Below, piece after piece: positions 1,800 through 34,850 of a DNA stretch of 63,776 bases. The translations under genes were made by a program, and so were the position numbers. The notes beneath the pieces were generated by a model. It worked only from the letters and a program-made list of their open reading frames with translations. It was not told the origin of the DNA and did not search any database. The DNA lies in the IMG/VR virus record IMGVR_UViG_3300009378_000008, positions 1 to 63,776 of that record; one strand, given 5' to 3'. The DNA comes from a virus. Positions within the stretch are counted from its first letter, which is position 1; every line of letters starts with the position of its first letter.

Positions 1800-4700
1800 T
1801 TATTCGTTGCCTCCTGAGTCTTGTTTGGTAACCTTGAGTTGTTTATACTCTTCCTTCACTTGGTCGAGGTTACGAATATCATAACCTGCATCTACCATCT
1901 CCTTTACCTTGTCCTTGGCATCGTTCTTGGACTTGGCGAAGTAGAACCACTCTCCATTGGAACGCTCCCACTTGACTCCCGGTACCTTGGCTTTCTGCCT
2001 CAGCGTCTTGGAAGCAGGTTGGGTGGGAATCGTAGCACAGATAAAGAGCTGGCCGTCTTGGATAACCGGGTACGGCCGCAGTATGGTTGGTTTTCCAACA
2101 GGGCGGAACCGCATACGGAAGAAGTTCTTGATATCCATCTGAGTGGCTTTAGGTACGTTCAACAGGCGTCCTTTGCCTTGGTCAAATGCCTGTTGAAGGC
2201 GACGAAGGGTACGGACGAAACTGCTCCGCATTTCGTAACCCTCGACTAAGGCATCCACCATAAGCGCCATCTTTTGCTTGTTCGGGATATAGGCAAAAGC
2301 GTAAGCCGGGATCAGATGGAACCCAAGATCCTGCATCTCACTTGCAGGCGGAGCATCAGGGTCGTCGTCATCAACGGTCACACAAATGATGTTGTTGGCG
2401 ACCGTCAAGAACGCCTCAAAGCCATTACCTGCCTGCTTGTCACCTGTTGGAACAGGCTTCCGAACTTGGTCCCCACTTGGGCCCACCGGCTGTTCATCCT
2501 GGTCTTCGACTACCTCTGTGGGATCAACATCCATGCGGGGTTCTTCTTCGGCAGGAGGCTCTTCTTCCATCTGTTGTTGGGCATCATCCATGAGATCTTC
2601 AACATGGTCTTCTGCCTGCTTCTTAAGCTGGTCTTTATGGTCCTCGGCTTGTTTCTGTTCTTCCTCCTCATTGGTGGGCTCCTGTTCAACCTTAAGTTCC
2701 TTGATACCCTCACCTTCCGGCTGTTCGTCTGTAGGTGGAAGTCCTTCGTCCACCGGAGCCTCTGGAGTCTCCTCTGGTCCCATCTCTTGCGTTTGTTTCA
2801 TAACCCGACGTAGGCGCCTACGTTCACGCCGCAATTCCTTTTCCAGTTCCTCGTTACCTTCTTGTACAGCCTGCTTGATCTTGACGGCAGTTTGTTTAAT
2901 CTCCATCTGGAGTTCTTCAACCGTACGCCCGTCAGGCACCAAAGCACGCCGACGTTTTTGTTGACGTGAGGCTTTACCCGCTTTGGTCGCCGGGGCATTG
3001 GTTTTGTCACGCTGGACCTGAGCGTCAGAGCCAGTGTCTGGAACATTAACGGGCTCACCAACATCAATAACCCCTACCGTGGGTAAGCCTAGCAAACCAA
3101 CCAGACGTTCTTGGACCGGAGCGGTATCCTCAGACTGGATGATAAAACTCCGCATCTTGAAAGCCGACACTGTTTGACCACTTGCCAGCTTGACCCTGAT
3201 CTTGTTCTTAGTACCCCCAACAATAACACCATCCCCGAACTCTGTGTGGACACGGGCATTCACCGGGGTGAAATCATCCAACTCTTGCCCGTTGTCCTCC
3301 GCATAGTTGGCAAACGTCGATACCCCGAGTTCGTCCATGTATGGCAACACCTGCCCGTCAATGTAGGGCACACCTACCATATACTGAGAACCCTCGAGGT
3401 CTGGGGCCGTAGCCACCAACCTTGGCTTTTTGTGGTGCTTGGGGTTGTTCTTATAGTTCTGGAAGTCCTTATGCTCTGCCTCCTTGTATGTGTGGAAGCC
3501 TTCCAGATACTGAGACAGGTTGGTCTCGAAATCGTTCTTCTCAGTGATCGAATCCAGTGTCATCGACACCAGTGGAAGGTTCGGTACTCCATCGTACAGC
3601 GGGTTACCTTGCTCATCGAAACGAACCTTGGCCAACATTTTGGAGATCAAGCGGCTGATCTTGGTGACATCAATGGATTGGTCACAAATCACCCAGTCAA
3701 AGTACACTTTGTCACGCTCGGCAAACTGCCCTTTCGGATCCGGCCGGAAGATACGCGACTCTGCCTGGTCCAACGCTCCGGGGCTCCACACCGACTCAAC
3801 CCTAATCAACCGACTCGCCATTTGGAGGTTGAGGCCTTCCTCCAGAGACTTGCCCACACCGATCAGGATCTGGATACGGTCATCCTTCATGAACTGGGCG
3901 ACATGCTTGGCTTTCTCCGAAGCATGGTACCGAAGGGCCCGGCTCTGCAAGTCAGGAGGCAGGCCCTCGTACATGGCATCTGCTGATCGGTTGTAACCGC
4001 AGAACACCAGAATCTTGCCCGGGATACCCTGGCTGATGTGCTGGTTGCACAGCTTCGTAACCTGCATGGCTTTGGGGCTGACCTGGTCTGCGGGGTCCTT
4101 CAGGAGGGCTTCACCATCGTGGTCCATCGCAGGCGCCGACAGGAACTTTTCCATCCGTTGCATGTAGGGCCGTAGCAAAAACTCGATGTTCTCAGCTTCT
4201 ACTTCATCACCAGACCTCAACTTGGACAAGAGGTCTTCGTTTTGGGCGATGAGCTCCAACGTCTGCTTGAGGATCGAATCGTAGACCGTCCGTTGGTTGG
4301 GCCTCATCTTGACAAAGTGGAAGTTCTCCACACGCTTTGGCAGGAGAGCCGCCCATTCCTTCCTCTTAATGGTAACAAGGTTGGAAAACTGGCCTACTCG
4401 TTGGGCGATCTTCCGCTCAGCGTCAGGCTTCCAGCTCAAGACCTTTCCACCACGCCAATCCGAGGCATAGGCTTCGATGAACTTTTTCCTATTGCCAAAG
4501 GTAGCGGGGTCGATCATGTTAAACTGACCGACAATATCCGTCATCTGGTCAGTAACAAAGGTACCAGTTGCCAGCCTACGATAAGGGATATCTGCCGCTA
4601 GCCGTTGAGTAACCTGGCTACGAGTGGACGCTGGGTTCTTGACATTGTGGCTTTCATCCAGCGCGATGTAGTCGAACCCAAAGGACCGCAGCATCTCGCT

Positions 4701-12214: not shown

Positions 12215-12334
12215 TCACATTCCCAGCAACAGCCTCATTTTTACCCATGCAAAAAACATCGCACCACCTACTATATACAGTAATCCCATAAAGAACAGCT
12301 CTTCCTTCCAGTGAGGGCCCCTTGGATCTTTCAT
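12215..12334 (-). CDS. Small membrane protein (39 aa)
   Basis: It starts by ATGA overlap with the ligase C-part stop. It has an N-terminal charged stretch, then one hydrophobic helix (about residues 14-30) and a short basic end. It is probably an inner-membrane peptide of unknown role. Confidence 0.5.
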   Translation of the reverse strand: MKDPRGPHWKEELFFMGLLYIVGGAMFFAWVKMRLLLGM

Positions 12335-13299
12335 TTTTCTAGGTTGAACGTCTCAACCAGCTCTTCCCTAGTCATGATCTTGATGCCAAGGTTAACCGCT
12401 TTCCGCTCCTTGGAACTGCCAGTACCTTTAAGTTTCATCACCAGGACTGTCACTTTCCTGGAGATGCCGCTGGCGATAGTACCGCCCTCACGTTCGATTT
12501 GTTCTTGTAAGTCTTTATCCCTGAAGCCGGTAAACACCACAATCTCACCCGACATCTTGTCACCCTCTGGAGGAGCCACAGGACCTAGTGTTTCAATGGT
12601 AATCAGGCGTTTGATGGGTTTTACGAAGGCCCGGAATTTGGGAAATCCTTGGGCAAACTGCTTGGCACGCTTACTGCTGAACCCAGATACAGACAGGGCC
12701 ATATGCTCCAAGTCCCGAGGGTTAGGTCTGTTAAGATCCATGATCTGCGGGTATTTCTCAACCAGTGGTGTTAACTGCCGTACACCAAAGCCAGGACCGA
12801 ATACCCCAGAAGCCGCCATCAATACGGGCAGAGACACTGGATTCAAAGCTTTCTTAATCCCGGTGACGATGGTGGTGGCCGTTTTATCCTGGATGCCAGG
12901 AACCGCCATCAAGTCTTTTTTCGTGGCTCGGATAACGGCTTCGATGGAGTCGATTCCATGAGTAGCCAACCGTTGGATTGTACCTTGAGCAAAGTTTTCG
13001 ACTTCAATGGCCTTAAAAAACCAAGCAATTTGTTTTACCAACTGTTCGTCGGTGTCCCCCGTGGCGCGTATATCGACACCAGAGGAAGTCCATTCAAAGT
13101 TACCGTCTTCCGGTAATCCTGCCTTGCGGCTAGGAGCAACAACCTCCAAAATATGCGGGATAACATCTCCACTCCTTGTAATCTTGAGGACCGCACCAGG
13201 CCCTACCTTGTTGTCGTTGATGAACTTGGCATTGAAACCAGTTACCCGACGGATAGTTACCCCTCCCAATCTAACACCAGGACGTACACTTTTAGCCAT
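12331..13299 (-). CDS. NAD-dependent DNA ligase, C-terminal part (OB, HhH, BRCT)
   Basis: 322 residues that continue the N-terminal part encoded at 14329-15312. It begins inside the OB fold (VRPGVRLGGVTIRR, then GDVIPH, as in LigA), continues with helix-hairpin-helix repeats (about 110-200) and ends in a BRCT domain from about 245 (GEIVVFTGFRD). It lacks the adenylation site, so it must work with the other part. The small zinc finger of LigA is not obvious. Its start overlaps the stop of the intervening nuclease gene, so all three genes are translationally coupled. Confidence 0.9.
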   Translation of the reverse strand: MAKSVRPGVRLGGVTIRRVTGFNAKFINDNKVGPGAVLKITRSGDVIPHILEVVAPSRKAGLPEDGNFEWTSSGVDIRATGDTDEQLVKQIAWFFKAIEVENFAQGTIQRLATHGIDSIEAVIRATKKDLMAVPGIQDKTATTIVTGIKKALNPVSLPVLMAASGVFGPGFGVRQLTPLVEKYPQIMDLNRPNPRDLEHMALSVSGFSSKRAKQFAQGFPKFRAFVKPIKRLITIETLGPVAPPEGDKMSGEIVVFTGFRDKDLQEQIEREGGTIASGISRKVTVLVMKLKGTGSSKERKAVNLGIKIMTREELVETFNLEK

Positions 13300-14329
13300 G
13301 GTGTATCCCCTTTAAAATCTGAGTGCGTGTCTTCCGATACCAACCTCGTGGCAAAACTATGCGTTTGGGGGAGCCGTTATCATTTTGCATAACCAAAAGT
13401 CGAAAGATAAAACCATCCTTCATTGTCTGTCGGGCTTTAGCACACAAAATGTGCCATAAACGGTCAGGGGAGCTTTTATGTAATCTATGGTTTGTTAATC
13501 CTGCCGTGTGTAAAGACTTTACTTCTATAAGTATGTTACGGTCCGGGAGGAACAAATCGGGGTAGTACCTACGGTTCTTTCCGTCAAGTTGGTAATATAC
13601 AACCGGCACTTCGCGGTCACTAAATACTCGGATCCTTGAAGGATCCACCCCTTTTTTGTGGAGTAACCAATCCAATGCTAGGTCTTCATATCCTTGTACC
13701 TGAACGACCCGGGAACCTAACGTATAAGAATGATAAAATCTTGTGCTGGAACAAGCATTACATGCCAAGCCTCGTTTAGCCAACACGGAAGAAGGGCGGG
13801 CCGTAAATAAGGCACCGCAAGAAAGGCATTTATGTTCTATTGGAACACTAATACCCTTATACACTCCTATAGGCTGTAGGGCTTTACCTAATTTCTCCAA
13901 CCTCTCACCGTATCTCTCTGTGGTATGTAGGCCATGTTTTGACGGGTTGCATGATCGACAACCAACACCACGTTTAACAGCCTCTGTGGTATACCAATCC
14001 TGGGTATTACAAAACTTACATTGATACAGGTTTTTGGCATTCTTCAACCGACGATAACCTTCCATAACATAAAAGGAAGAGTTACGGATTTCTGTCATAT
14101 GGTTGCACATCGAATGGAAATTCTGCAACCTATCAGAGCAGGCAGGGCAGTTAAGGAACCCGTTTTTCGTGGTCCTGGGTTTAGTTATAAACCCATTACC
14201 GCAGATCTTACAATAATGGCTACAAGGTACGTGAACACCGGAATACCCGGAAAGGTACCCTACCAAAGTAGAATCCAAGGATTTAATGTACTCTTGTTCT
14301 CTTACCTCGAGAGATTTAGACATACCCAT
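13292..14329 (-). CDS. Zinc-finger PD-(D/E)xK (Vsr-like) homing-type endonuclease
   Basis: 345 residues. Several CxxC pairs in the first 200 residues form repeated zinc ribbons (CKICG, CPAC, CKFC, CRSC, CLSC, CNAC). The nuclease core YYPDLFLPDRNILIEVKS lies near 250-268, the Vsr-like arrangement found in homing endonucleases that sit beside split genes. It lies exactly between the two ligase parts, overlapping each (TAATG and ATGGCTAA). The probable role is self-mobilisation by cutting ligase genes that lack the insertion. Intein end motifs are absent, so protein splicing is not expected. Confidence 0.82.
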   Translation of the reverse strand: MGMSKSLEVREQEYIKSLDSTLVGYLSGYSGVHVPCSHYCKICGNGFITKPRTTKNGFLNCPACSDRLQNFHSMCNHMTEIRNSSFYVMEGYRRLKNAKNLYQCKFCNTQDWYTTEAVKRGVGCRSCNPSKHGLHTTERYGERLEKLGKALQPIGVYKGISVPIEHKCLSCGALFTARPSSVLAKRGLACNACSSTRFYHSYTLGSRVVQVQGYEDLALDWLLHKKGVDPSRIRVFSDREVPVVYYQLDGKNRRYYPDLFLPDRNILIEVKSLHTAGLTNHRLHKSSPDRLWHILCAKARQTMKDGFIFRLLVMQNDNGSPKRIVLPRGWYRKTRTQILKGIHHG

Positions 14330-15312
14330 TACATCGGTTCCACTATGACAGTAGGTTTCAAAATACCATGCTTAGACACGTTCCATTCTACACTCACCAC
14401 CCTACATTTCACTATCTGATCCTCCATCAACATCTTGAAGGCTACGCTGTACCGAGGGTTGCCAGATGTGGCGCGTTTGTATATTGAGTCCTGTGTGACC
14501 ACCAGACCGTCTATGGCAAACTTAGAGCTCTTCCGCCTCGCAATGAGTCTGTCAGAGAGTGTCTGGGCGTCCAGGACCTTATAGGCCTTGGCAGGAGCGA
14601 CCGTGAATCCAAGCTGGTGTTTCAGGTAGTTGAGCTGTTCGGAGGGTTTCTTGCGTGGAACGATGAGTTCGTAGCACACCAAGGTGGCGTCTTTGAGGGC
14701 AGGGCTGACATCCGGGCGGTTGACCAACCCACCCATGAAATTCCGTGGGTTTGCGAAGTCCTTGGCGTACTTCTTGAACGCCGTCTCGGACATGATGATC
14801 TCGGCCCGTACCGCGAAGGTGTCCTGTGTCTTGGGAAGCCCAAGAATTGGCACCATGGACGTTACATCCTGTCCGACCTTACCGTTACCTCGGGTAAACA
14901 GTTGGTACCGGCCCTTGGTACAGATGATAAGCATTGAGATGCCGTCCATCTTGTCCGACACCACGTAGGGCCCTGGGTTGGCGTCAAACCAACGGTCAAG
15001 GTCTGGAGTGTTGGGTTTGATCTTGTCGAGGGAACCCATCCAATAGGGCAGTTTTTGTTTCTTACCCTGATCGACAGGAGCGCCTACTTTTTGGAGCAAA
15101 GGGCTGTCAGGGAACCTCTGGCGGAACGTATCCTCAATCGCGTCAAACTCGGCGTCTGACAAGAAAGGGCTTCCCTTGTAGTACGTGTTCTTGGCCCGGC
15201 GGTATAACTGACGTAGCAGCCGAGCGGACAACTTTGAGGCATAACCTCCAGGGTCTGCCTTTAGGGCTGTCAAATCGAACTCATACGCTGCCACTTCCCT
15301 CAACCTTTTCAT
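14329..15312 (-). CDS. NAD-dependent DNA ligase, N-terminal part (adenylation domain)
   Basis: 327 residues. It carries the Ia-like N-terminus (YYKGSPFLSDAEFDAIED), the adenylation lysine in DKMDGISM near residue 119, TRGNGKVGQDVT, and FAIDGLVVTQDS near 265. It stops at IVEPM, where LigA continues its OB fold. It seals nicks using NAD only if it associates with the C-terminal part. It begins MKRLREVAAY, a leader-like start unlike LigA, and overlaps the upstream stop by ATGA. Confidence 0.92.
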   Translation of the reverse strand: MKRLREVAAYEFDLTALKADPGGYASKLSARLLRQLYRRAKNTYYKGSPFLSDAEFDAIEDTFRQRFPDSPLLQKVGAPVDQGKKQKLPYWMGSLDKIKPNTPDLDRWFDANPGPYVVSDKMDGISMLIICTKGRYQLFTRGNGKVGQDVTSMVPILGLPKTQDTFAVRAEIIMSETAFKKYAKDFANPRNFMGGLVNRPDVSPALKDATLVCYELIVPRKKPSEQLNYLKHQLGFTVAPAKAYKVLDAQTLSDRLIARRKSSKFAIDGLVVTQDSIYKRATSGNPRYSVAFKMLMEDQIVKCRVVSVEWNVSKHGILKPTVIVEPM

Positions 15313-26989: not shown

Positions 26990-27165
26990 TTCATGACTCG
27001 AAAAACCCAAGGATTTCAATGTCTTGCCATAGAAGAGCCCAGATGGAGGCAGGCAACGTTGGGCATGGACGTTAGGCGGCACTCGGAGACCGGGGAGATC
27101 ACACTATACACCTGGGCCCTTCTATGGCAAGGCAGGCACACCTACTTGGGACCCTGCCCTCATGG
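26990..27165 (-). ncRNA. Candidate structured RNA with 23-bp helix
   Basis: Minus-strand transcript candidate just downstream of a TGTAAATA element. Bases 27131-27109 pair with 27045-27023 over 23 consecutive positions (21 Watson-Crick, 2 G-U), closing a 63-nt loop that holds an AACGT/ACGTT hairpin. A GGCAGG/CCTGCC hairpin precedes it. No protein is convincing in this stretch on either strand. It resembles no RNA I can name. It ends just before the HNH promoter. Confidence 0.55.
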
Positions 27166-27167
27166 TT

Positions 27168-27175
27168 TATTTACA
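27168..27175 (-). promoter_or_regulatory. TGTAAATA element before the structured RNA
   Basis: Exact octamer with the common CTTGTAAATAAA context, lying between the tRNA at 27203 and the 23-bp-helix RNA. Confidence 0.65.
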
Positions 27176-27202
27176 AGAAATTATTATAAACTGAGCCAAA
27201 AA

Positions 27203-27290
27203 TGGAGCCAGGAACAGGATTCGAACCTGCGTTGGGTTTTCGCCGTCGGCTTACAAAGCCGCTCCTCTCGGCCGCTGGAGGGACCCTGGC
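27203..27290 (-). tRNA. tRNA with long variable arm, anticodon TGT by geometry
   Basis: 88 nt with encoded CCA. The acceptor GCCAGGG/TCCTGGC, a 4-bp D stem, and a T arm GCAGG/CCTGT with TTCGAAT loop all pair. The anticodon stem GCGGC/GCCGA leaves loop TTTGTAA, hence TGT (Thr), with one G-A mismatch at its base. A 15-nt variable region is class-II-like, odd for Thr. Tyr (GTA) would fit the class but breaks the stem. Confidence 0.8.
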
Positions 27291-27393
27291 AAATCAAGAT
27301 TAGACTAGAGATATGGACCTGCGTTTGGGTAGAACCAACAACCTAAGGCTTAACAGGCCCTCACTTTACCAACCAAACTACTGTGGATTAAGA

Positions 27394-27501
27394 TGGCACG
27401 TAGTAGGAATCGAACCTACGATTCTCGCTTAAACGGTTGATCAGTCCGCTATCGGCGAGCACAGACTCTGCCTGCGCGTTTACCACTCCGCCATACGTGC
27501 C
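27394..27501 (-). tRNA. tRNA-like element with aberrant anticodon region
   Basis: 108 nt. Ends GGCACGTA/TACGTGCC pair over 8 bp directly beside a perfect T arm (GTAGG, loop TTCGATT, CCTAC), and a D-arm-like segment is present. Instead of a normal anticodon arm there are two stems: CGCAG/CTGTG with loop GCAGAGT, whose position 33 is C rather than T, and CTCGC/GCGAG enclosing about 26 nt. It has no canonical anticodon and no full CCA. It may be a degenerate tRNA, or a tRNA mimic. It starts 10 nt after the 23S-like RNA. Confidence 0.6.
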
Positions 27502-27511
27502 ACAAAGAAAA

Positions 27512-27764
27512 TATGGTGTGCTATTACGCCAAAGAGGAGTTCACCCTTACCATCTCTGGGGTGGCTTACTACTTCACCAAGTGGCGCCCGTCGCCTATCC
27601 CTCATAGCAGGTGGTCCTGCAGAGCTCTTTATTTGGATGCCGCCACCCAAACGTTAGCCTAGAGGTTTCCCTGGTTCATGCCCTTGCAATCCAGGTACGT
27701 ACTACAACTAACGGCCTTTGCCTCACTCTTTAAAGGATGGCTGCTTCTAAGCCAACCTCCCATA
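27512..27764 (-). ncRNA. RNA mimicking the 23S rRNA GTPase-associated centre, with 195-nt insertion
   Basis: Read on the minus strand, 27756-27726 reproduces E. coli 23S about 1059-1089 almost base for base (helix 43, including GGCTTAGAAGC with the A1067 position). Bases 27530-27518 reproduce about 1091-1103 (GGCGTAATAGCAC with the A1095 position). TATGG/CCATA closes the unit like helix 42. Between them lie 195 nt, closed by AAAGAG/CTCTTT plus GAG/CTC and holding further perfect stems (CGTTAG/CTAACG, CCTGG/CCAGG, TTTGG/CCAAA, GCAGG/CCTGC). This centre binds ribosomal protein L11 and contacts translation GTPases; the role here is inferred only. Confidence 0.8.
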
Positions 27765-27777
27765 CCTTATAGTATAT

Positions 27778-28149
27778 TCAATACCACGTTCGATGTTGTT
27801 CAAATACCCATTCACGACCATCGTCAGCTTCACCGATACTCCACTTAATGTCCTCCGGAATCTCTATGACCTTCAGGTCAGGGGCCAAATCCTGGTGTTG
27901 GTTGAATGCTTCCAAGAGAGCAGGGTCATCACGCGGTATATCAAACACTGGGCAAAATCGTTCACCATCCTTGGTGTAGTTAAAGGATGCATGTGGTTCG
28001 TCTTCATGGGCCTGGTCTTTATAAGATTGGACATACACTCCGTCCAGTTCCCACTGGAGATCAACACCAGTAGCCTGTGCCCAGGCCATCACAATTTTGT
28101 GTGGAAGGGAAAACCCACCGATTTCTTTGTTAATGAGTATATGCCTCAC
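27778..28149 (-). CDS. Unknown 123-residue protein
   Basis: It begins MRHILINKEIGGFSLP. An aspartate/glutamate-rich body follows with no catalytic signature. I believe similar short phage proteins exist but cannot give a role. The stop lies 14 bp before the 23S-like RNA, so that RNA may be cut from the 3-prime end of this transcript. Confidence 0.75.
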   Translation of the reverse strand: MRHILINKEIGGFSLPHKIVMAWAQATGVDLQWELDGVYVQSYKDQAHEDEPHASFNYTKDGERFCPVFDIPRDDPALLEAFNQHQDLAPDLKVIEIPEDIKWSIGEADDGREWVFEQHRTWY

Positions 28150-28176: not shown

Positions 28177-28253
28177 TGGCTGGCCCCCCTGGATTCGAAC
28201 CAGGGATACACAGAATCAAAATCTGTTGCCTTACCAAACTTGGCTAAGGGCCA
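28177..28253 (-). tRNA. tRNA-Gln (TTG)
   Basis: 77 nt with encoded CCA. Acceptor TGGCCCT/GGGGCCA, D arm GCC/GGC, anticodon stem ACAGA/TCTGT with loop TTTTGAT (anticodon TTG), and T arm CCTGG/CCAGG with TTCGAAT all fit. Confidence 0.95.
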
Positions 28254-29781: not shown

Positions 29782-29869
29782 TGGTAGGGCTGGAGGGAGT
29801 TGAACCCACGGTAGGTCGCCCTACGTCGGTTTTCAAGACCGGTACCTTTAACCACTCGGCCACCCTTCC
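29782..29869 (-). tRNA. tRNA-Ser (TGA), imperfect acceptor stem
   Basis: 88 nt with CCA end. The anticodon loop CTTGAAA on stem CGGT/ACCG gives TGA, and a long variable arm is present. The 5-prime GGAAGGG does not pair properly with the 3-prime CAGCCCT, and one T-stem pair is a mismatch. It may be decaying or need an unusual fold. Confidence 0.8.
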
Positions 29870-34148: not shown

Positions 34149-34850
34149 TTAACAAACATCAAAGTGGTTGAGGCGTTCCAGTAGGGGATCGGATAACCCA
34201 GCATCCGCAAAACCCTTGGCACGCAATAAGCAACTACGGCACTTGGTACATGGGGATTTACCCCCTTCATAGCAAGTGGTGGTGAAGGCCAATAATTCCA
34301 TACCACGCGGCAACGACTGAGCAAACTCTACCACCCCTTGCTTACCCCACTGCATTAGAGGAGTAAGTACCTGGAAGTGGTAGTCCATTCCTTTCGTCAG
34401 AGCCTCGGCCATGGCATCCGCAAAGTCACGGCGAGCGTCTGGGTACCCGCCCAACCCCTGTTCAGATATGCCAAACACCAGGTTAGGGCAATCCAAAGCA
34501 TAGGCCCTGTTCGCGAGCAAAATGGAAAACAGGATGTTACGCCCTGGAACGAACGTAAGGTCCTTGCCACCATCTGGGATCTCCGACGCGTCTTCGTATC
34601 GTTTGACTTCGTTCGCGCTGTTTACCAGTGGACTGGTGGACCGCAAGAGCTCATTCGGGACACTGATAATATCCTGACGTATGCCAAGTTGGCGGCATAT
34701 GGTCTGGGAAGCAAGCCGTTCCGCTTCCCATGTTTTGTGTCCATAGTTGAAGGTGATAGCGCGAACCTCGTCAAACTCTTGCTGGGCCCAAATCAGGGCA
34801 AGAGTCGAGTCGAGGCCTCCGGATAAACTGACAAGGGCTTTCGTTGTCAT
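34149..34850 (-). CDS. queC: 7-cyano-7-deazaguanine synthase
   Basis: Makes preQ0 from 7-carboxy-7-deazaguanine, ammonia and ATP. 233 residues, normal length. The PP-loop SGGLDS is at residues 9-14, FVPGRN near 100, and the zinc cysteines CYEGGKSPCTKCRSC near 190-205 are complete. Phages use such genes either to feed queuosine or to place deazaguanines in their own DNA. No folE, queD, queE or DNA-inserting transglycosylase lies in this window. It has its own TGTAAATA promoter. Confidence 0.95.
   Translation of the reverse strand: MTTKALVSLSGGLDSTLALIWAQQEFDEVRAITFNYGHKTWEAERLASQTICRQLGIRQDIISVPNELLRSTSPLVNSANEVKRYEDASEIPDGGKDLTFVPGRNILFSILLANRAYALDCPNLVFGISEQGLGGYPDARRDFADAMAEALTKGMDYHFQVLTPLMQWGKQGVVEFAQSLPRGMELLAFTTTCYEGGKSPCTKCRSCLLRAKGFADAGLSDPLLERLNHFDVC

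Follow-up and report, generated by a model that had tools for sequence, protein, structure and literature searches.

A phage RNA that copies the GTPase-associated center of 23S rRNA and carries a variable insert

The minus strand of a viral DNA stretch of 63,776 nucleotides (IMG/VR record IMGVR_UViG_3300009378_000008; the whole stretch is referred to as the window) carries at positions 27768-27508, as read directly from the sequence, a free-standing copy of the GTPase-associated center (GAC) of 23S rRNA. This copy comprises helices 43 and 44 together with a short closing helix, and at least 174 distinct elements of this kind have been collected from viral contigs, isolated phages, one plasmid and five bacterial assemblies. 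The features of the GAC fold found in these elements are the helix 43/44 sequence, the tertiary pair 1082-1086 and the contact positions U1060 and A1088. The preserved fold suggests that the phage RNA binds or decoys a part of the host protein-making machinery.

All 23S positions below are given in E. coli numbering. When the window element is compared with a real bacterial 23S stretch (locus L249), 46 of 49 GAC positions are identical (both halves are given in Table 1), which bears out the original prediction of a 23S GAC copy on this strand. The three changes are 1058 U>G, 1080 A>C and 1101 U>A. Those at 1058 and 1080 form one compensatory pair (U-A to G-C), and A at 1101 could pair with U1090. 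Both signature adenines, A1067 and A1095, are kept as had been claimed, with their equivalents at 27748 and 27525, respectively. The 5' half contains helix 43, the UUAAA loop (1082-1086) and the start of helix 44, and the 3' half, which reads GCGUAAUAGCACAC, contains the helix 44 loop and the U1101 to A change.

On the 5' side of its loop, helix 44 is interrupted by 195 extra nucleotides (27724-27530) that separate 1090 from 1091, precisely the insertion described initially. The unit is closed by a 9-bp helix with two G-U pairs (27768-27760 with 27516-27508), which stands in for helix 42 and covaries among the relatives, consistent with the short helix-42-like closing helix proposed earlier. 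The original prediction also had 9 bp closing the insert, while the relatives instead back a stem of 3-4 bp (27724-27721 with 27537-27534). Overall, the interpretation as an insert-bearing phage copy of the GAC in RNA form is supported, and the 9-bp insert-closing stem is not. The sequence of helix 42 proper is not retained in the element, and therefore neither is the L10 site that this helix presumably carries. The minimum-energy fold of the window RNA is unremarkable (z = -1.39, with 17 of 200 shuffles equally good), and such folding of the window element alone is not decisive.

Table 1. Features of the GAC element and of its surroundings in the window.
Feature	Position	Strand	Basis
Closing helix, 5' strand, helix-42-like	27760..27768	-	sequence; column covariation in 99 elements
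GAC 5' half, 23S 1056-1090	27725..27759	-	33/35 identical to L249; covariation 1058-1080, 1057-1081, 1082-1086
Helix 44 insert, 195 nt, class I	27530..27724	-	insert stem columns covary (GC/AU/CG/UA), not selected for
Short stem closing the insert	27721-27724 with 27534-27537	-	covariation in relatives
Class I hairpin of the insert, CACCCC-A-GAGA-U-GGUAAGG	27545..27563	-	alignment of 25 class I elements
GAC 3' half, 23S 1091-1104	27516..27529	-	13/14 identical to L249; blind localization 31/46
Closing helix, 3' strand (27516 is also the C1104 equivalent)	27508..27516	-	covariation, as for the 5' strand
tRNA-like gene, long variable region, 7 nt after the closing helix	27395..27500	-	Rfam RF00005, 43.7 bits; ARAGORN silent
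tRNA-Gln, same-strand array	28177..28253	-	ARAGORN and Rfam
tRNA-Thr, same-strand array	27203..27290	-	ARAGORN and Rfam

The 175 collected entries lie in 173 loci (the window, 162 viral-contig, four named-phage, one plasmid and five bacterial-assembly loci), and one wrong pairing in phage Astolliot reduces them to 174 distinct elements; some of the IMG/VR contigs among the 162 viral-contig loci look like named isolates again. The helix 43 pattern, which fixes positions 1062-1079, was found in at least 119 viral stretches. The 3' half pattern, containing A1101 and the preceding UUUG (unlike rRNA), was found in 68, and a looser version of it in at least 120. Since these patterns fix 1062-1079 and the 3' half of helix 44, conservation in these regions is partly due to ascertainment. 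The two-part motif with the closing helix yielded 162 elements in 244 loci (one motif half had served to gather most of these loci), and none in 2.05 Mb of base-shuffled sequence of the same loci.

Hosts of the isolated phages belong to Pseudomonas, Aeromonas, Xanthomonas, Serratia, Cronobacter and other genera. Both halves are present in Pseudomonas phages Astolliot, Milchi, pf16 and UNO-G1W1, Aeromonas phage 4_4572, Xanthomonas phages XacN1, XaC1 and XbC2, Serratia phage BF, Cronobacter phage GAP32, Pectobacterium phage CBB and Erwinia phage Kaldavass, and, in a more changed form that was read by eye, in Acinetobacter phage ME3. In the records of these named phages that were examined, the element bears no RNA annotation. 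Two units per phage were observed for Astolliot, Milchi and L039, and two contigs were matched at two places each (L018 with L142, L132 with L149). In Astolliot (L171 2673-3170) and Milchi (L338 2241-2740) a degenerate class II unit is followed in tandem by a unit with a class I ending. A 42-kb viral contig (L011, around position 3724) contains a GAC-like hairpin that has no insert but has a closing helix of its own.

In a genome collection covering 84,980 species the exact 3' pattern was found at only six loci, four of them on contigs under 10 kb, and five of the six possess both halves. With so few loci, the element looks like an essentially phage RNA. The plasmid search matched 519 records, of which one, the 910-kb plasmid CP136011 of Pseudomonas sp. 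FeN3W, was examined and contains a true element; the remaining matched records are taken to be plasmid-borne rrn. The plasmid locus (L248, 749209-765245) holds 19 tRNA genes in 16 kb in addition to the GAC element, although the plasmid's gene table lists no RNA genes.

The inserts differ strongly in length and sequence among the relatives, the distance between the helix 43 and helix 44 anchors ranging from 55 to 653 (median 161). At least three insert classes can be told apart by their 3' ends, and many elements fit none of them. Class I, which includes the window element, has CACCCC-R-tetraloop-Y-GGUAAGG just before the stem. It was gathered by the CACCCC and GGUAAGG motifs, both of which are invariant in its 25 elements, and the closing pair of its hairpin varies (GU, AU, GC or UA). 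The class II insert ends with AGACCCNNAGAG, and a scan with the class II pattern matched 17 viral stretches, part of them overlapping the collection. The class III insert ends with GRUAAURGRAAUAUGAGAU. In a few elements, e.g. L234, there is an extra insert at the base of helix 43.

The correlation between alignment columns was measured as mutual information with average-product correction in 99 elements under 80% identical. These represent the 108 canonical-spacing elements among the 162; the other 54 comprise 37 without the spacer pattern and 12 and 5 with other spacing. The 16 top-scoring column pairs are 1058-1080, 1057-1081 and 1082-1086 together with those of the closing helix and of the insert stem, so that the covarying homologues in other phages that had been asked for are present. 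In particular, pair 1058-1080 is UA in 38, GC in 37, AU in 16 and CG in four of the 99 elements, and pair 1082-1086 is UA in 53 and CG in 35, position 1082 being limited to U or C by the spacer pattern. Moreover, position 1056 tracks the latter pair, with G accompanying UA in 38 elements, and A accompanying CG in 30 and UA in 14. In rRNA, position 1056 is known to form a base triple with 1082-1086. The crystal structure of the rRNA shows 1082-1086 as a Watson-Crick pair (PMC6689051).

The occurrence of A1088 in all 99 elements is no evidence of conservation, as it had been fixed by the spacer pattern. The recount was therefore made over 173 5' halves with no spacer pattern applied, where U1060 is kept in 172, A1088 in 167 and A1067 in 158. 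Over the same 173 halves 1082-1086 is UA in 73, CG in 39 and AU in 16, while the imperfect combinations include a gap (14), CA (8), GG (6), TT (4) and CC (3), and part of these exceptions may come from misalignment. In the 25 class I elements, 94.7% of cells are paired, compared to 75.9% after shuffling (a level reached by none of 500 shuffles) and no more than 50.1% when the partners are slid; pair 1082-1086 is here UA in 13, AU in six and CG in four. RNAalifold alone finds the closing helix, helix 43, two pairs of helix 44 and the class I hairpin. ME3 and the first units of Astolliot and Milchi have, by our own reading, U-A rather than C-G as the helix 44 pair 1092-1099.

As the set of 162 elements and the earlier collection required the closing helix, the control was repeated with no stem requirement of any kind. 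Among 107 representatives, 7.97 of 10 closing-helix positions are paired, compared to 4.95 with swapped partners, and 3.11 of four insert-stem positions, compared to 1.86; in this control, 18 of 137 5' halves lack a 3' half at a distance of up to 500 nt. In a search for the 3' half guided only by complementarity to the closing helix, 31 of 46 best partners fell exactly on the helix 44 motif RGCGUANNAGCACAY, counted with up to three mismatches. Of the other 15 partners, which lie outside the motif, three miss it by a single base; for 32 of the 78 no partner was obtained. The 31 blindly located 3' halves have A1095 in 30 cases and A1101 in 30. Among 78 elements gathered through the 3' half, the 5' half was located by a loose motif (up to five substitutions) and the helix, and here A1067 is kept in 64, being replaced by G, C or U in some, while U1060 and C1072 are kept in all 78. 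Hence the 1067 and 1095 loops, whose loss in relatives would have spoken against the original prediction, are largely retained. The cellular rRNA was analyzed in the phylum of the genome behind L177 with a pattern that left 1080, 1082 and 1086 free, and in the 12 of 61 genomes that matched it these positions are uniform. Host rRNA is thus constant where the phage elements vary with compensation, and therefore the elements are not fresh rRNA copies.

The window belongs to a large tailed phage, since it encodes a tail sheath and topoisomerase II subunits, the large one being about 44% identical to that of Xanthomonas phage PhiXhv-15. The element sits inside a same-strand tRNA group, between the stop codon at 27778 of an upstream ORF matching phrog_16527 and the tRNA-like gene that starts at 27500. 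Three minus-strand segments (27395-27500, 27323-27380 and 29785-29866) are tRNA-like by Rfam, one of them below the threshold, and are not reported by ARAGORN. Among other genes of the window there are a eukaryotic-type topoisomerase I catalytic core (PF01028; 19037-20605, minus strand), present in a phage that has topoisomerase II subunits as well, and an NAD-dependent DNA ligase split over two minus-strand ORFs (12331-13299 and 14329-15312) with a further ORF between them, the adenylation domain being on one ORF and OB/HHH/BRCT on the other. A QueC homologue (PF06508, E 9e-50; 34149-34850, minus strand) may point to 7-deazaguanine DNA modification.

In the entire collection, ARAGORN predicts tRNAs in 122 of 173 loci and none in 51. 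Wherever the nearest tRNA is within 500 nt, it has the same strand as the element (99/99), and a tRNA lies within this distance for 57% of the entries against 40% of random positions in the same loci, a modest enrichment. XacN1 has no tRNA within 3 kb of its element. Within 200 nt downstream of the 175 entries there are 69 same-strand tRNA starts (tRNAs, not elements, being counted). In GAP32, BF and CBB the element precedes a coding gene, and judging by gene lengths and the CBB annotation it occupies an equal position in the gene order of GAP32, BF, Kaldavass, XbC2 and CBB. The commonest neighboring protein family, counted on either strand and either side, occurs at 11 loci of 160 non-redundant elements and, by its cysteine/histidine pattern, looks like an HNH homing endonuclease. 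In XaC1 a peptidyl-tRNA hydrolase is annotated 1.8 kb upstream of the element. A protein family is encoded 1.5-4 kb behind the element in L177, L133, L009 and L106, and the one member tested matches DUF2828, which presumably resembles the Ro60/TROVE RNA-binding proteins.

The window was compared with 4227 families of Rfam 15 by cmscan, and at the gathering score only tRNA was matched. GOLLD and ROOL, with which a comparison had been recommended and which we take to be included in Rfam, gave no match in 27000-28000 up to E 10, and LSU_rRNA_bacteria (RF02541) shows no match to the window element up to E 10. Among seven further loci scanned, L030 matches positions 1084-1153 of LSU_rRNA_bacteria (E 1.3e-6, 31.4 of 50 bits, below the gathering score), and the other six show no LSU rRNA match up to E 1.

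The element resembles the 23S GAC in the helix 43/44 sequence, in 1082-1086 and U1060/A1088, and in loop bases 1067 and 1095, which are mostly kept, but it is free-standing, has an insert in helix 44 and A at 1101, and has, in place of helix 42, a short helix that covaries and is free in sequence. GOLLD and ROOL, ornate structured RNAs of phages and prophages located near tRNA genes, on which there is a cryo-EM paper (PMC12286853), are similar in being structured phage RNAs in such surroundings, whereas the element described here is smaller, holds an rRNA functional center and has no match to them in the window. Leaders of ribosomal protein genes (of the L1, L10, L20 and S15 type), which imitate rRNA and act in cis in bacterial operons, are likewise RNAs outside the ribosome that imitate a ribosomal protein site; the present element differs in being phage-borne and often located among tRNAs. 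No ribosomal protein gene was found directly downstream of it, the neighbor being the tRNA-like gene in the window and hypothetical proteins or tRNAs in the named phages. Stable RNAs C and D of T4, whose function is unknown, are also small stable phage RNAs in a tRNA cluster, but rnaC and rnaD lack the GAC motif; they were rejected as relatives, as loose motif matches (up to four substitutions) make no two-part GAC. In the open-access literature searched, by titles and beginnings of abstracts, there is no description of a phage GAC RNA.

Concerning the function, we lean slightly beyond an even chance towards a phage RNA that acts in trans: with its GAC-like fold it would bind host L11 and would disturb or shield the functions that depend on the GAC (translation GTPases, RelA). 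Such a non-coding RNA would probably be co-transcribed with the phage tRNA array, fold into the GAC tertiary structure and act in trans. Its main partner would be the host ribosomal protein L11, as the isolated GAC RNA (about 57-58 nt) folds alone and is what L11 binds. This RNA has been studied in isolation, as a domain that forms a tertiary fold of its own, whose Mg-dependent form is needed for L11, hardly any L11 binding being seen without Mg2+ (PMC8373061). Binding of L11 is also the cheapest explanation, because the fold-making positions are kept while other base pairs exchange freely, and the looser conservation of A1067 compared to the fold positions speaks more for L11 binding than for a trap that copies the factor site faithfully.

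The RNA would lower or redirect GAC-dependent events during infection, either by holding L11 or by presenting a GAC to its factors. RelA activation would be the most attractive of these events, since the function of RelA partly depends on L11 (PMC7873864) and a phage with many tRNAs risks uncharged tRNA. Phage predation is reported to trigger the stringent response (PMC5244418), so that blunting RelA is an attractive but unproven role. Genes of the RelA/SpoT family were found in none of 50 element-bearing contigs, and an L12-family match over the cut-off in three, one of them clear, so there is no genomic link to the stringent response or to the stalk. Given the abundance of ribosomes, large amounts of the RNA would be required to titrate L11. 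The variable insert, which leaves helix 44 beside the factor-binding loop, would be a second module, either a stabilizer or a binding site of another partner. As for L12-like genes, ORFs partly matching the L12 C-terminal domain (approximately profile positions 8-37) were observed on contigs G034, G037, G011, G021 and G049, which correspond to L130, L133, L028, L050 and L212.

The RNA might instead serve as a decoy that spares the ribosomes from a host or competitor agent attacking their GAC (a toxin, an RNA-modifying enzyme or a thiopeptide-like antibiotic), which we regard as possible but unlikely. The loop bases exposed in the ribosome are largely kept, A1095 and A1067 alike, but the fold positions U1060 and A1088 are stricter than A1067, and we know of no phage defense system directed at the GAC. 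The frequent location of the element among tRNA genes is consistent with a decoy, as phage tRNA arrays may compensate for tRNA-cleaving defenses; a tRNA-cleaving defense is reported in PMC13096335. The wide spread and the rapid turnover of the insert would fit an arms race as well. A trap or sensor for the translation GTPases (EF-G, EF-Tu, IF2), slowing host translation or favoring phage mRNAs, is improbable. A1067 and A1095, the factor contact points in the ribosome, are largely retained, but A1067 tolerates G, C and U, the sarcin-ricin loop was not recognized in the elements in an unsystematic look, and L12-family genes are as rare as given above.

Even less credit is due to a cis-acting leader, where L11 or another factor would bind the element and control the downstream phage gene, like in autoregulation by ribosomal protein leaders. 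The common strand with the neighboring tRNAs and the coding genes behind the element in GAP32, BF and CBB would agree with it, but the downstream neighbor varies between phages and is often a tRNA, and even the commonest neighboring family occurs at few loci. The probability that the elements are host rRNA contamination or a recent functionless capture is close to nil, although some records of "phages" do contain plain host 23S, several according to annotation and Paenibacillus phage Pd_22F by sequence. Contamination was ruled out by the covariation, with compensatory changes throughout, by the insert, A1101 and the unique flanks, by the shared gene-order position in GAP32, BF, Kaldavass, XbC2 and CBB, and by the mere six loci with the exact 3' pattern in the genome collection. 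An assembly artifact from host rRNA, the objection raised with the original prediction, is unlikely because IMG/VR contigs L067 (169 kb) and L075 (128 kb) carry the same element. Pd_22F and the other phage records with host 23S were left out of the collection as rRNA; among the "phage" records containing host 23S are MZ092003 (by sequence), KM209255 and OR845016 (by annotation or similarity).

The preferred reading, with L11 as the main partner, is directly testable by L11 binding and knockout, since cultured phages whose hosts are tractable (Pseudomonas putida phage pf16, Serratia phage BF and Aeromonas phage 4_4572) carry the element. The element is spread over numerous large phages without being annotated in the phage records examined, and its collection offers well over 100 natural versions of an RNA tertiary fold that is among the best studied. 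To our knowledge, it would be the first viral RNA imitating a tertiary center of the large ribosomal subunit, and it may connect phage tRNA arrays with translation control or the stringent response. Whether widespread, previously undescribed trans-acting phage RNAs rebuild a ribosomal center and capture L11 (possibly RelA or GTPases), with exchangeable inserted effector domains, is in our estimate an evenly balanced question. If true, this would represent RNA-level molecular mimicry of the ribosome as a strategy of takeover or counter-defense.
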